Source of the DNA: Bacteroidaceae bacterium
Lineage (GTDB): Bacteria > Bacteroidota > Bacteroidia > Bacteroidales > Barnesiellaceae_A
Direction of reading: 5' to 3'
NCBI GenBank assembly: GCA_017532725.1
Contig: JAFXIZ010000046.1
Coordinates: forward strand, 1-46,046
Length of the DNA stretch: 46,046 bases
Shown: piece after piece, positions 3,221 through 35,348 of the stretch
How positions within the stretch are numbered: position 1 is the first letter of the stretch
Layout: every line of letters starts with the position of its first letter
Notes under the pieces: model-generated
Database searches by the model: none
What the model was told of the DNA's origin: nothing
The model's input: only the letters and a program-made list of their open reading frames with translations
Translations under genes and position numbers: made by a program

Positions 3221-4660
3221 ATGGCTATCAAGAACAATGTAATGATTGTCAGACATAAATTGCTGACCAATCTTATCAAACTATGGAAAAACGGTGAATT
3301 GGTTGAGAAAATAGACCGATTACCTATCGAATTGAGTCCTCGTAATGCACAAGTGCGTGGTCGTTGTTGTATTCACAAAGAGCGTGCTGTGTGGAAGTAC
3401 AAATCGTTGCCTTTGTTGGGCTATGATATGACCGATGAAACCGACGAGTTGACTCCCCTGAGTGACTATGCGCGCCGTGCTATGGAGCGCGAAAAAATCA
3501 AAGACAATATAATGTGCGTTATCGATGAGGCTTGCTCATCTTGTGTGCGCACCAATTATGATATCACCAACTTGTGTCGTGGCTGTGTGGCTCGTGCTTG
3601 TTCTCACGCTTGTCCCAAGAATGCGATAGAGTTTGACCCCTATACCAGCCAAGGCCGCATCAATCACAACGACTGTATCAGTTGTGGTAAGTGCTTCGAG
3701 GCTTGCCCTTATCACGCAATTGTGTATATACCTGTTCCTTGCGAGGAGGCTTGCCCTGTACAGGCTATCAGCAAAGACCAATATGGTGTAGAGCATATCG
3801 ATGAAAGCAAGTGTATATATTGTGGTAAGTGCCTCAATAGTTGCCCCTTCGGTGCTATCTTCGAGATATCGCAAGTATTCGACGTGTTGCAAAGCATCCG
3901 TCGTGGCGAGAAGGTAGTGGCTATGGTCGCTCCTGCTATCTTGGCTCAATACAACTTGCCTGCCGAGCAAGTGTATGGCGCAATCAAGGCTATCGGTTTT
4001 ACCGATGTTATCGAGGTGGCACAAGGTGCCGAAGAAACAACCCGATTGGAGAGTGCCGAGTTGAAAGAGCGTCTTGAAGAGGGCGCACCCTTTATGACAA
4101 CTTCGTGCTGTCCCTCTTACATCGAGATGGCCGAGAAACACGCTCCCGACTTGAAGAAATACATCTCGAGCACTCGCTCGCCTATGTATTACACTGCCCT
4201 TATCGCTCGTGAGAAGTATCCCGATGCCAAACTCGTGTTTGTAGGTCCTTGTATTGCCAAGCGCAAAGAGGCTCGTCGCGACGACTTGGTAAATTATGTA
4301 ATGACTTTCGAGGAGATTCATTCGGTATTCGATGGCTTGGGCATAGAGTTGGGCGAACAACACGTCTTTGATATTCCTGTTTCATCAAGCAAGTTTGCTC
4401 ACGGTTTTGCACAAACCAACGGTGTGACTCAAGCCGTTCTCAATGAGATTAACGGTGAGTTTACATTCACGGCTACATTGGTGGCAAATCTTACCAAGAA
4501 AAATGTAGCCTTGTTGCGTGCTTATGGTAAGACCGGCAAAGCCCCCGTACAGTTTATTGAGGTGATGGCTTGCGAGGGTGGTTGTATATCGGGCCCTGCC
4601 AATCACGAATCATACGATAAGGCTCGTCAAACATACAACAAAGAACTGCAAAGAAGATAG
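3221..4660 (+). CDS. hydA: Monomeric [FeFe] hydrogenase, group B-like
   Basis: A 479-residue iron-sulfur enzyme that interconverts protons and H2. Residues 105-131 hold a cysteine cluster (CSSC, CRGC, CSHACP), then two classic 4Fe-4S motifs at 152-162 and 198-208. The H-cluster domain has L1 TSCCPSY (294-300; Cys296 is the likely proton-relay residue and Cys297 a cluster ligand), L2 GPCIAK (342-347; Cys344) and L3 VMACEGGC (448-455; Cys451 and Cys455). The L2 glycine in place of the usual methionine of MPC, the Tyr after TSCCPS and the shortened L3 are what I associate with group B rather than the well-studied group A. Roughly 100 N-terminal residues carry no motif I know. HydE, HydG and HydF follow directly, so the enzyme is almost certainly active. 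Physiological role of group B is inferred only: disposal or recycling of reducing power. Confidence 0.93.
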   Translation: MAIKNNVMIVRHKLLTNLIKLWKNGELVEKIDRLPIELSPRNAQVRGRCCIHKERAVWKYKSLPLLGYDMTDETDELTPLSDYARRAMEREKIKDNIMCVIDEACSSCVRTNYDITNLCRGCVARACSHACPKNAIEFDPYTSQGRINHNDCISCGKCFEACPYHAIVYIPVPCEEACPVQAISKDQYGVEHIDESKCIYCGKCLNSCPFGAIFEISQVFDVLQSIRRGEKVVAMVAPAILAQYNLPAEQVYGAIKAIGFTDVIEVAQGAEETTRLESAELKERLEEGAPFMTTSCCPSYIEMAEKHAPDLKKYISSTRSPMYYTALIAREKYPDAKLVFVGPCIAKRKEARRDDLVNYVMTFEEIHSVFDGLGIELGEQHVFDIPVSSSKFAHGFAQTNGVTQAVLNEINGEFTFTATLVANLTKKNVALLRAYGKTGKAPVQFIEVMACEGGCISGPANHESYDKARQTYNKELQRR

Positions 4661-33643: not shown

Positions 33644-33651
33644 TATATTTG
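33644..33651 (+). promoter_or_regulatory. -7 box upstream of the HU pair
   Basis: TATATTTG matches TAnnTTTG; the upstream T-rich stretch TTTTTCG near 33618-33624 is a poor -33 box. The HU start is 30 bases downstream. Confidence 0.5.
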
Positions 33652-33680: not shown

Positions 33681-33965
33681 GTGGAACATAAAGATTTAGT
33701 GGCAAGGTTGCAACACCGATTGGGCTTCGGTCGCGATAGAGTGGAGGCTATGTTGGAGGGTTTCTCGCACATAGTCACCGAGCGTTGCTCGCAGATGGAC
33801 ACTATTATGATACAAGGGTTGGGAACATTCGAGGCGCGCAAGAAGATGGAGCGTGTGGCTGTCAATCCTACAACCGGCAAACGAATGCTTATCCCTCCCA
33901 AGGTGGTATTGGTGTTTAAGCCCAATAATGCTATAAAAAACCGACTGAAAGATAAGAAGCAATAA
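33681..33965 (+). CDS. HU-family DNA-binding protein (small)
   Basis: A 94-residue HU/IHF-fold protein with a GTG start (GTG GAA CAT AAA). The N-terminal helical half (DLVARLQHRLGFGRDRVEAMLEGF) leads to IQGLGTFEARKK (44-55), the conserved turn and first strand, and VNPTTGKRMLIPPK, which forms the DNA-intercalating arm (equivalent to RNPxTG of HU). The stop codon overlaps the start of the next gene (TAATG), so the two HU-fold proteins are translationally coupled and may form a heterodimer, as IHF subunits do (inference). Confidence 0.92.
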   Translation: MEHKDLVARLQHRLGFGRDRVEAMLEGFSHIVTERCSQMDTIMIQGLGTFEARKKMERVAVNPTTGKRMLIPPKVVLVFKPNNAIKNRLKDKKQ

Positions 33966-35248
33966 TGAATCAAAAGATAACTTTCCCCGAACTTATTGAG
34001 TTGTTGGCTCATAAACAGAGATGCTCGAAGCGTGAGGCTGAAAACTTCTTGCGTGAGTTGATGACAACGATGACCGATGTGGTGTCGTCGGGCGAGTCGT
34101 TGCGCATCAATACGCTCGGCACATTCAAGCCTGTGTGGGTCGAAGACCGTGTCAGTGTCAATGTACAGACGGGCGAGCCATACACCATTCCCGGGCATTA
34201 TAAACTTACGTTTACGCCCGTAAAGGCTGTCCGTGAGGCTGTAAATGAGCCTTTTGCGTGTTTTGTTGTAGAGACTCTACCCGATGATGCACCCTGTGTG
34301 GTTATGCCTCAAAACTCCGATGAAATCGAGGTCGATAGTGTGGATGATGACACCGAGGATGTGGTAGAAGTACCCGAAGTGCCTGCTACGGATGAGGATG
34401 CCGAGCCTACGGTTGTTGAGGAGGAAATACCTCAAACAGCCCCTGTTGTTGTCCCCGAAATATTCGATGAAACCGAACTTAAGCGTGACGCTGTTGTTGA
34501 AGAAGAAGACAATGAGTTGTCGGAAGAGTCGGTCGATGTGCCTCAACTTGAAGTCGTGGAAACAGCCGAGGTGGAGCAATCGGAGCAAGAAGTCGAGCAG
34601 CCCGAGGTAGAGCAGCCGGAACAGTTGCCGGAACAGTTGCCCGAGCAAGAGCCGGAGCAAGTAAGTGACGCCCCAATCGAGTGTGTTGATGAGGCTCGTG
34701 TGGAGGAAAAGGATGTCGATAATTTCGATGAATCCGTTAAAAAGGCCTATCGCAAAGGGTTGTTGATAGGCGTTGTTGTGGCTGTTGCTTTGGTAGGCTT
34801 ATTGGGTGTGGGTGTGTATCTCTACCATAAATTTGCCGTGCCTCACGTTGAAGTGCCGGTGGTGCATCACCCTATGGTAGCCGATTCATCGAATATATTG
34901 GTAGATACTGTGCCGACCATTGTTGTTGAAGATAGCGTCGATACAGTCCTTTATAACGGTGATGTCGATGTGGTTGATGTTGCCGTTGCACCTGTCGTTA
35001 CCGATACAGTGAAACGTGGTGTTTTCCTAACCAATATATCGCTGAGGCATTATGGTCATAAGGCGTTCTGGGTGTATATTTATGAGGAGAATAAAAATAT
35101 CATTTCCAACCCCGATAATGTGGCAGCCGGAACAGTAGTGGTGATACCTCCTGCACACAAATATGGTATTGATGCCACCGATACGATGGCTGTAAATATG
35201 GCTCTCGATATAGCCGATAAAATAAAAAGAGATAAGGCAAAGAGGTAG
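33965..35248 (+). CDS. HU-domain protein with acidic linker, one membrane helix and LysM-like C-terminus
   Basis: A 427-residue protein in four parts. Residues 1-92 are an HU fold (FPELIELLAHKQRCSKREAENF, INTLGTFKP, FTPVKAVREAVN). Residues about 105-255 are a long acidic, Pro/Glu/Gln/Val-rich linker with PEQ repeats at 213-231. KKAYRKG (259-265) then a membrane helix at about 265-287; the positive-inside rule puts the HU side in the cytoplasm. A second spacer leads to a LysM-like domain at about 354-396 (LTNISLRHYGHKAFWVYIY, NPDNVAAGTVVVIPP) on the outer side. The protein could connect nucleoid DNA to the peptidoglycan or act as a membrane-bound DNA organiser (inference). Coupled to the small HU gene. 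Confidence 0.88.
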   Translation: MNQKITFPELIELLAHKQRCSKREAENFLRELMTTMTDVVSSGESLRINTLGTFKPVWVEDRVSVNVQTGEPYTIPGHYKLTFTPVKAVREAVNEPFACFVVETLPDDAPCVVMPQNSDEIEVDSVDDDTEDVVEVPEVPATDEDAEPTVVEEEIPQTAPVVVPEIFDETELKRDAVVEEEDNELSEESVDVPQLEVVETAEVEQSEQEVEQPEVEQPEQLPEQLPEQEPEQVSDAPIECVDEARVEEKDVDNFDESVKKAYRKGLLIGVVVAVALVGLLGVGVYLYHKFAVPHVEVPVVHHPMVADSSNILVDTVPTIVVEDSVDTVLYNGDVDVVDVAVAPVVTDTVKRGVFLTNISLRHYGHKAFWVYIYEENKNIISNPDNVAAGTVVVIPPAHKYGIDATDTMAVNMALDIADKIKRDKAKR

Positions 35249-35340: not shown

Positions 35341-35348
35341 TACCTTTG
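35341..35348 (+). promoter_or_regulatory. -7 box of the Bat operon
   Basis: TACCTTTG; the nearest -33-like TGTG is at 35316-35319. The box lies within a longer upstream frame, so MoxR translation should start at 35392 instead. Confidence 0.6.

Follow-up and report, generated by a model that had tools for sequence, protein, structure and literature searches.

A linked pair of HU-type genes in Bacteroidota, one encoding a membrane-anchored subunit with a LysM-fold end: a candidate link between chromosome and cell wall

The nearest precedent for the membrane-spanning HU protein described here is the HU-CCDC81 protein with a SPOR domain, for which a role in chromosome partition has been predicted; novel HU clades were reportedly surveyed by Burroughs and colleagues in 2017. 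Like the protein analyzed here, it combines HU-type domains inside with a hydrophobic stretch and a peptidoglycan-binding-type end. A functional analogy is provided by HubP/FimV, in that the LysM domain of FimV binds peptidoglycan (sacculi), while HubP exerts its effect on the chromosome origin via ParA1 (PMC12918733, PMC8789113). The fold and HMM family of our proteins are those of HU and IHF, of which IHF is heterodimeric and has been solved as a single chain (2iie). Ordinary HU and IHF are small and soluble, however, whereas in the present system one subunit is anchored in the membrane and has lost arm features. In the literature searched, which was covered in part, we found no description of a protein with the order HU, transmembrane helix (TM) and LysM.

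The window, that is, the whole 46,046-nucleotide stretch of DNA analyzed (contig C17 of a 2.1 Mb draft genome from the order Bacteroidales), contains two HU-type genes at positions 33681-35248. The first (33681..33965, + strand) starts with GTG and encodes a small HU subunit of 94 aa (PF00216, 2.2e-20), while the second (33965..35248, + strand) encodes a membrane HU subunit of 427 aa with the order HU, acidic linker, TM, linker and LysM. In an HMM search, both exceeded the PF00216 gathering cut-off of 22.4 bits, with 73.1 bits for the small and 69.8 bits for the membrane protein. The TAA stop of the first gene and the ATG of the second share one base in the sequence TAATG (33963..33967, + strand), an overlap that the preliminary description of the locus had pointed out. 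Apart from these two, the genome has a single PF00216 gene, which encodes the housekeeping HU (contig C70).

The same genome also encodes HU-CCDC81_bac_1 and HU-CCDC81_bac_2 domains together with SPOR (PF18174, PF18175 and PF05036) in a 361-aa ORF on contig C54. This protein (L182; G000:C54 8579-8944) has a hydrophobic stretch, ends in the SPOR domain and belongs to another HU clade. Its tandem HU domains resemble the fused HU-LysM forms described below. It differs from the window proteins in its HU clade, in having SPOR for LysM, and in carrying its tandem in one gene as opposed to a two-gene asymmetric pair; conversely, PF18174 and PF18175 were not among the Pfam matches of the window proteins, and SPOR was absent from the C-terminus of the membrane HU protein, which has LysM there. 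The HU-TM-LysM system is thus distinct from HU-CCDC81-SPOR by its HU clade, its LysM end, its two-gene asymmetric organization and its natural fusions. Of 295 Bacteroidales genomes, 248 have a PF18174 match over the cut-off and about 50 match the LysM end strongly, and we ruled out that HU-LysM substitutes for HU-CCDC81-SPOR, since most genomes with HU-LysM carry both. The preliminary statement that a protein bridging nucleoid and cell wall is not standard in the HU family holds for PF00216, but HU-CCDC81-SPOR, encoded in the very same genome, is a precedent for membrane HU proteins that end in a wall-binding domain.

The structure of the membrane HU protein was predicted with AlphaFold2 from an input alignment of 40 rows. 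The HU domain (residues 1-99; 33965..34261, + strand) was modeled as a confident fold with both arm strands present (pLDDT mostly >90); its arm tip reads VNVQTG, with Val in place of Pro, and the family signature REAVNEPF follows. HU/IHF chains, HU-DNA complexes included, were the best Foldseek matches of the whole model, with TMt values of up to 0.88 (0.86 for the HU-DNA structure 1p71). Next comes a predicted disordered, acidic cytoplasmic linker (residues 100-253; 34262..34723, + strand; pLDDT mostly <60), whose composition across the family is 27% D/E and 5% K/R. The positively charged juxtamembrane motif KKAYRKG (residues 259-265; 34739..34759, + strand), assigned from the sequence and the positive-inside count, precedes the core of a single transmembrane helix (residues 266-284; 34760..34816, + strand; Kyte-Doolittle 2.89), which the model places within a helix over residues 254-290. 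A predicted disordered periplasmic linker (residues 291-343; 34835..34993, + strand; pLDDT mostly <60) leads to a Kbp-type LysM domain (residues 344-400; 34994..35164, + strand) with the core YGHKAFWVYIYEENK, assigned by profile, structure and AlphaFold2, and a C-terminal helix is predicted after it (residues 407-426; 35183..35242, + strand). Exactly one membrane helix was predicted in 101 of 102 distinct relatives, which indicates that the domain order is not due to chance. The number of K and R residues was higher in the 15 residues before the helix than after it in 84 relatives and lower in 5, and no signal peptide precedes the HU domain, which forms the extreme N-terminus. These features point to an N-inside orientation, with a cytoplasmic HU domain and a periplasmic LysM domain. 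The HU fold, acidic linker, KKAYRKG motif, single membrane helix and N-inside topology, all proposed in the preliminary description, were thus recovered.

The C-terminal domain, earlier described as LysM-like, was examined by profile and structure comparison. The NCBIfam Kbp/LysM model NF008399 matches residues 344-400 with an E-value of 4.9e-7, under the model's own cut-off, and the best PDB match of the family profile is E. coli Kbp (E 2.9e-9). The same residues were predicted by AlphaFold2 as a beta-alpha-alpha-beta unit with pLDDT 87-97 (87 for the domain folded alone), and a VIA structure match to Kbp gave a Z-score of 8.5 over 64 residues with an rmsd of 2.4, the next matches being other LysM domains. 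Profile search and predicted structure confirm the LysM fold of the domain, and its FWVYIY core is nearly invariant across the family. The Pfam LysM model PF01476 had no match in the window protein and matched one of 31 relatives (E 3.9e-4). The GD[ST]L loop, which is usual in sugar-binding LysM domains, was missing from the alignment, the corresponding residues being RGVFLT in the window protein and mostly G-x-x-LT across the family. The closest solved LysM domain, Kbp (YgaU), is named a potassium-binding protein and has neither the TM nor the HU domain of the membrane HU protein. Both the missing loop and the identity of this closest solved domain count against the tether proposed below. The same Kbp-type LysM end also occurs in two long proteins with no HU match, L180 (G048:C27 7575-9251), which looks OmpA-like, and L189 (6753-8438), suggesting that this LysM variant is used by other envelope proteins. 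A further protein of 628 aa, L190 (G199:C121 4653-6539), has the same LysM end, a TM at 517-535 and an HU-looking N-terminus, VIPGLGYLELKP; it gave zero Pfam matches and is possibly a third design.

We assessed the distribution of the system in a genome scan seeded with a profile of the LysM end alone. Strong matches (E below 1e-14 in a long frame) were obtained in about 50 of the 295 sampled Bacteroidales genomes, from 19 family groups, and a search of the phylum added f142, a family from the second class of the phylum. The scan of named species genomes yielded 397 loci, and the loci kept came from records titled, for example, Barnesiella, Coprobacter, Dysgonomonas, Muribaculum and Duncaniella. 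Many of the Bacteroidales that live in the gut carry the pair. Two Muribaculaceae-like HU-LysM and bat loci were found in records titled Paenibacillus sp. (L159) and Alistipes timonensis (L128), titles that look wrong. A small HU gene lies directly upstream in 98 of the first 102 distinct loci, with stop-to-start gaps of -35 to +30 nt in these 98 relatives, most commonly -4. When divergent loci were added, the 126 loci with upstream sequence comprised 118 adjacent pairs, 7 fusions and 1 locus without a small HU, although these loci are mutually related and the counts are not independent observations. The fusions (L161, L162, L165, L166, L167, L168 and L170) encode a small-type HU, a membrane-type HU, TM and LysM in the gene order of the pairs, and a separate small HU gene was absent from the fetched locus of all seven. 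Apparent counter-examples were dismissed, as L118 and L137 end at a contig edge and L161 is a fusion; in L171 a six-frame translation revealed a small HU match directly upstream, leaving L125 as the only locus truly without a small HU. In L188 (G238:C141 6690-8003) a frameshift, either real or derived from assembly, divides the membrane HU gene between two frames that overlap, one for the HU part and one for the TM-LysM part.

A tree of 101 HU domains placed the small and membrane types on opposite sides of a branch with 99/100 support. The f142 copies obey the same division, so that the second class of the phylum is present on both sides, and the first and second HU domains of the fused proteins each fall on the matching side, some of these fused rows being long branches. 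The pair is therefore old and its two members have been passed down together, or it was transferred whole. The four-part order was found to recur, together with a small HU, in Bacteroidales and in f142, and the anatomy and pairing of the two proteins are well supported. The preliminary description had suggested a heterodimer from the TAATG overlap; the adjacent pairs, the tandem fusions and the two-clade tree are the strongest evidence for it and go well beyond the overlap.

The two subunits are markedly asymmetric. In the window, the small HU has a 28-aa beta-arm with an NPTTG tip that includes Pro, an IPPK motif and a net charge of +8, whereas the membrane HU keeps a 28-residue arm with a Pro-less NVQTG tip and has an HU charge of 0, giving a summed HU net charge of +8 for the pair. 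Across the family, small subunits retain an arm of 27-28 aa in 107 of 107 cases and the tip Pro in 90 of 105, with a mean HU charge of about +6; of 111 membrane subunits, 28 have lost the arm, the tip residue is Val or Ile in 74 of 83 arms, and the mean HU charge is about -0.6. This asymmetry suggests a division of labor between a soluble partner for DNA contact and a membrane partner for anchoring.

The domain order, fold, pairing, fusion, asymmetry and topology bias are thus supported by computation, and from them we infer, with a probability of roughly 0.5, an obligate HU heterodimer that would bind DNA and peptidoglycan in the cell and so tie the nucleoid to the cell wall. According to this proposal, the HU fold of the membrane subunit would dimerize with the small HU, and the small basic subunit with its intact arm would make most of the DNA contact. 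The acidic flexible linker would keep the HU dimer away from the inner membrane, a single helix would span the membrane, leaving the N-terminus in the cytoplasm, and the Kbp-type LysM domain on its periplasmic linker would grip peptidoglycan. The complex would then tether the nucleoid to the wall, comparable to HubP, which links the Vibrio origin to the pole via a LysM-TM-acidic chain.

The asymmetry also bears on a different explanation, in which the heterodimer is an HU-fold scaffold that does not bind DNA and serves as a protein-binding module organizing an envelope complex; a repurposed HU fold has been proposed for eukaryotic CCDC81. The missing arms and the replacement of the tip Pro by Val or Ile would fit such a scaffold, as would the summed HU charge: where the membrane subunit has no arm, it does not exceed zero in 20 of 26 pairs. 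In those pairs DNA binding may be lost, which counts against a tether there, and a DNA-free role is possible in the many arm-less lineages whose pair is acidic. The full arm of the small subunit is, however, kept everywhere, and this subunit is basic in most lineages, the window included. The loss of the tip Pro was ruled out as proof of lost DNA binding, because the housekeeping HU of the genome (C70), with the tip ARNISQKT, lacks it as well. Independent arm losses were likewise rejected: the best tree built without the arm columns implies 8 changes, of which well-supported branches force only 1. We consider the scaffold less probable than the tether.

Less probable still is a landmark of the HubP/FimV type at the pole or division site, with DNA as one of several clients of the acidic linker. 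The likeness consists of a periplasmic LysM domain, one TM and a long acidic cytoplasmic region, all three of them predicted in the HU protein. HubP/FimV, however, has its N-terminus outside and its C-terminus inside, the reverse domain order, and a TPR/FimV domain with protein clients instead of HU. Neither a C-terminal TPR/FimV domain nor an N-terminal signal was found in the window proteins, whose N-terminus is HU. The two systems are not homologous overall, and HU-TM-LysM may be said to work like HubP/FimV with no membership implied.

The genomic neighborhood was examined in the same loci. Predicted TANNTTTG boxes, a Bacteroides-type -7 element, lie before the HU pair (33644-33651) and before moxR (35341-35348); they suggest separate transcription of the two, although such boxes are little above chance in the window (48 found vs 37.3 expected). 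Elsewhere, the window (3221-4660) encodes an iron-only hydrogenase large-subunit protein (PF02906) that contains several 4Fe-4S domains. A MoxR gene is found no more than 1.2 kb downstream of the pair in the window and in 50 of the 88 loci where this could be tested, usually with a Bat operon; in other lineages the pair is flanked instead by ftsY-rimO, by a T9SS plug protein with mscL, by a peptidase, or by aconitase and CHAD genes. Because the neighbors vary while the HU pair persists, the link to the Bat operon was ruled out as a functional unit; the unit is the HU pair, not its neighborhood. The frequent MoxR neighbor would suit a membrane-bound, wall-sensing regulator of genes in its vicinity (MoxR/Bat operon), but this is the least probable reading given this turnover and the mostly low sequence specificity with which HU folds, IHF excepted, bind DNA.

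Returning to the tether between nucleoid and wall, we tentatively suggest, with somewhat less than even confidence, that it is a dedicated two-subunit system whose members were paired before the two examined classes split. One HU subunit would have been converted into a membrane anchor and its partner would have retained the DNA-binding arm, and in some lineages the two would have become a single gene. As far as we are aware, little is understood of how the nucleoid of Bacteroidota is attached to the envelope. This conserved and genetically linked HU pair, of which one member is anchored in the membrane and ends in a domain of the wall-binding type, is a concrete candidate for physically connecting the chromosome to the wall. 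Deletion and localization of the pair are amenable to testing in cultured Barnesiella, Dysgonomonas or Muribaculaceae, and the natural fusions are single-chain constructs ready to use.
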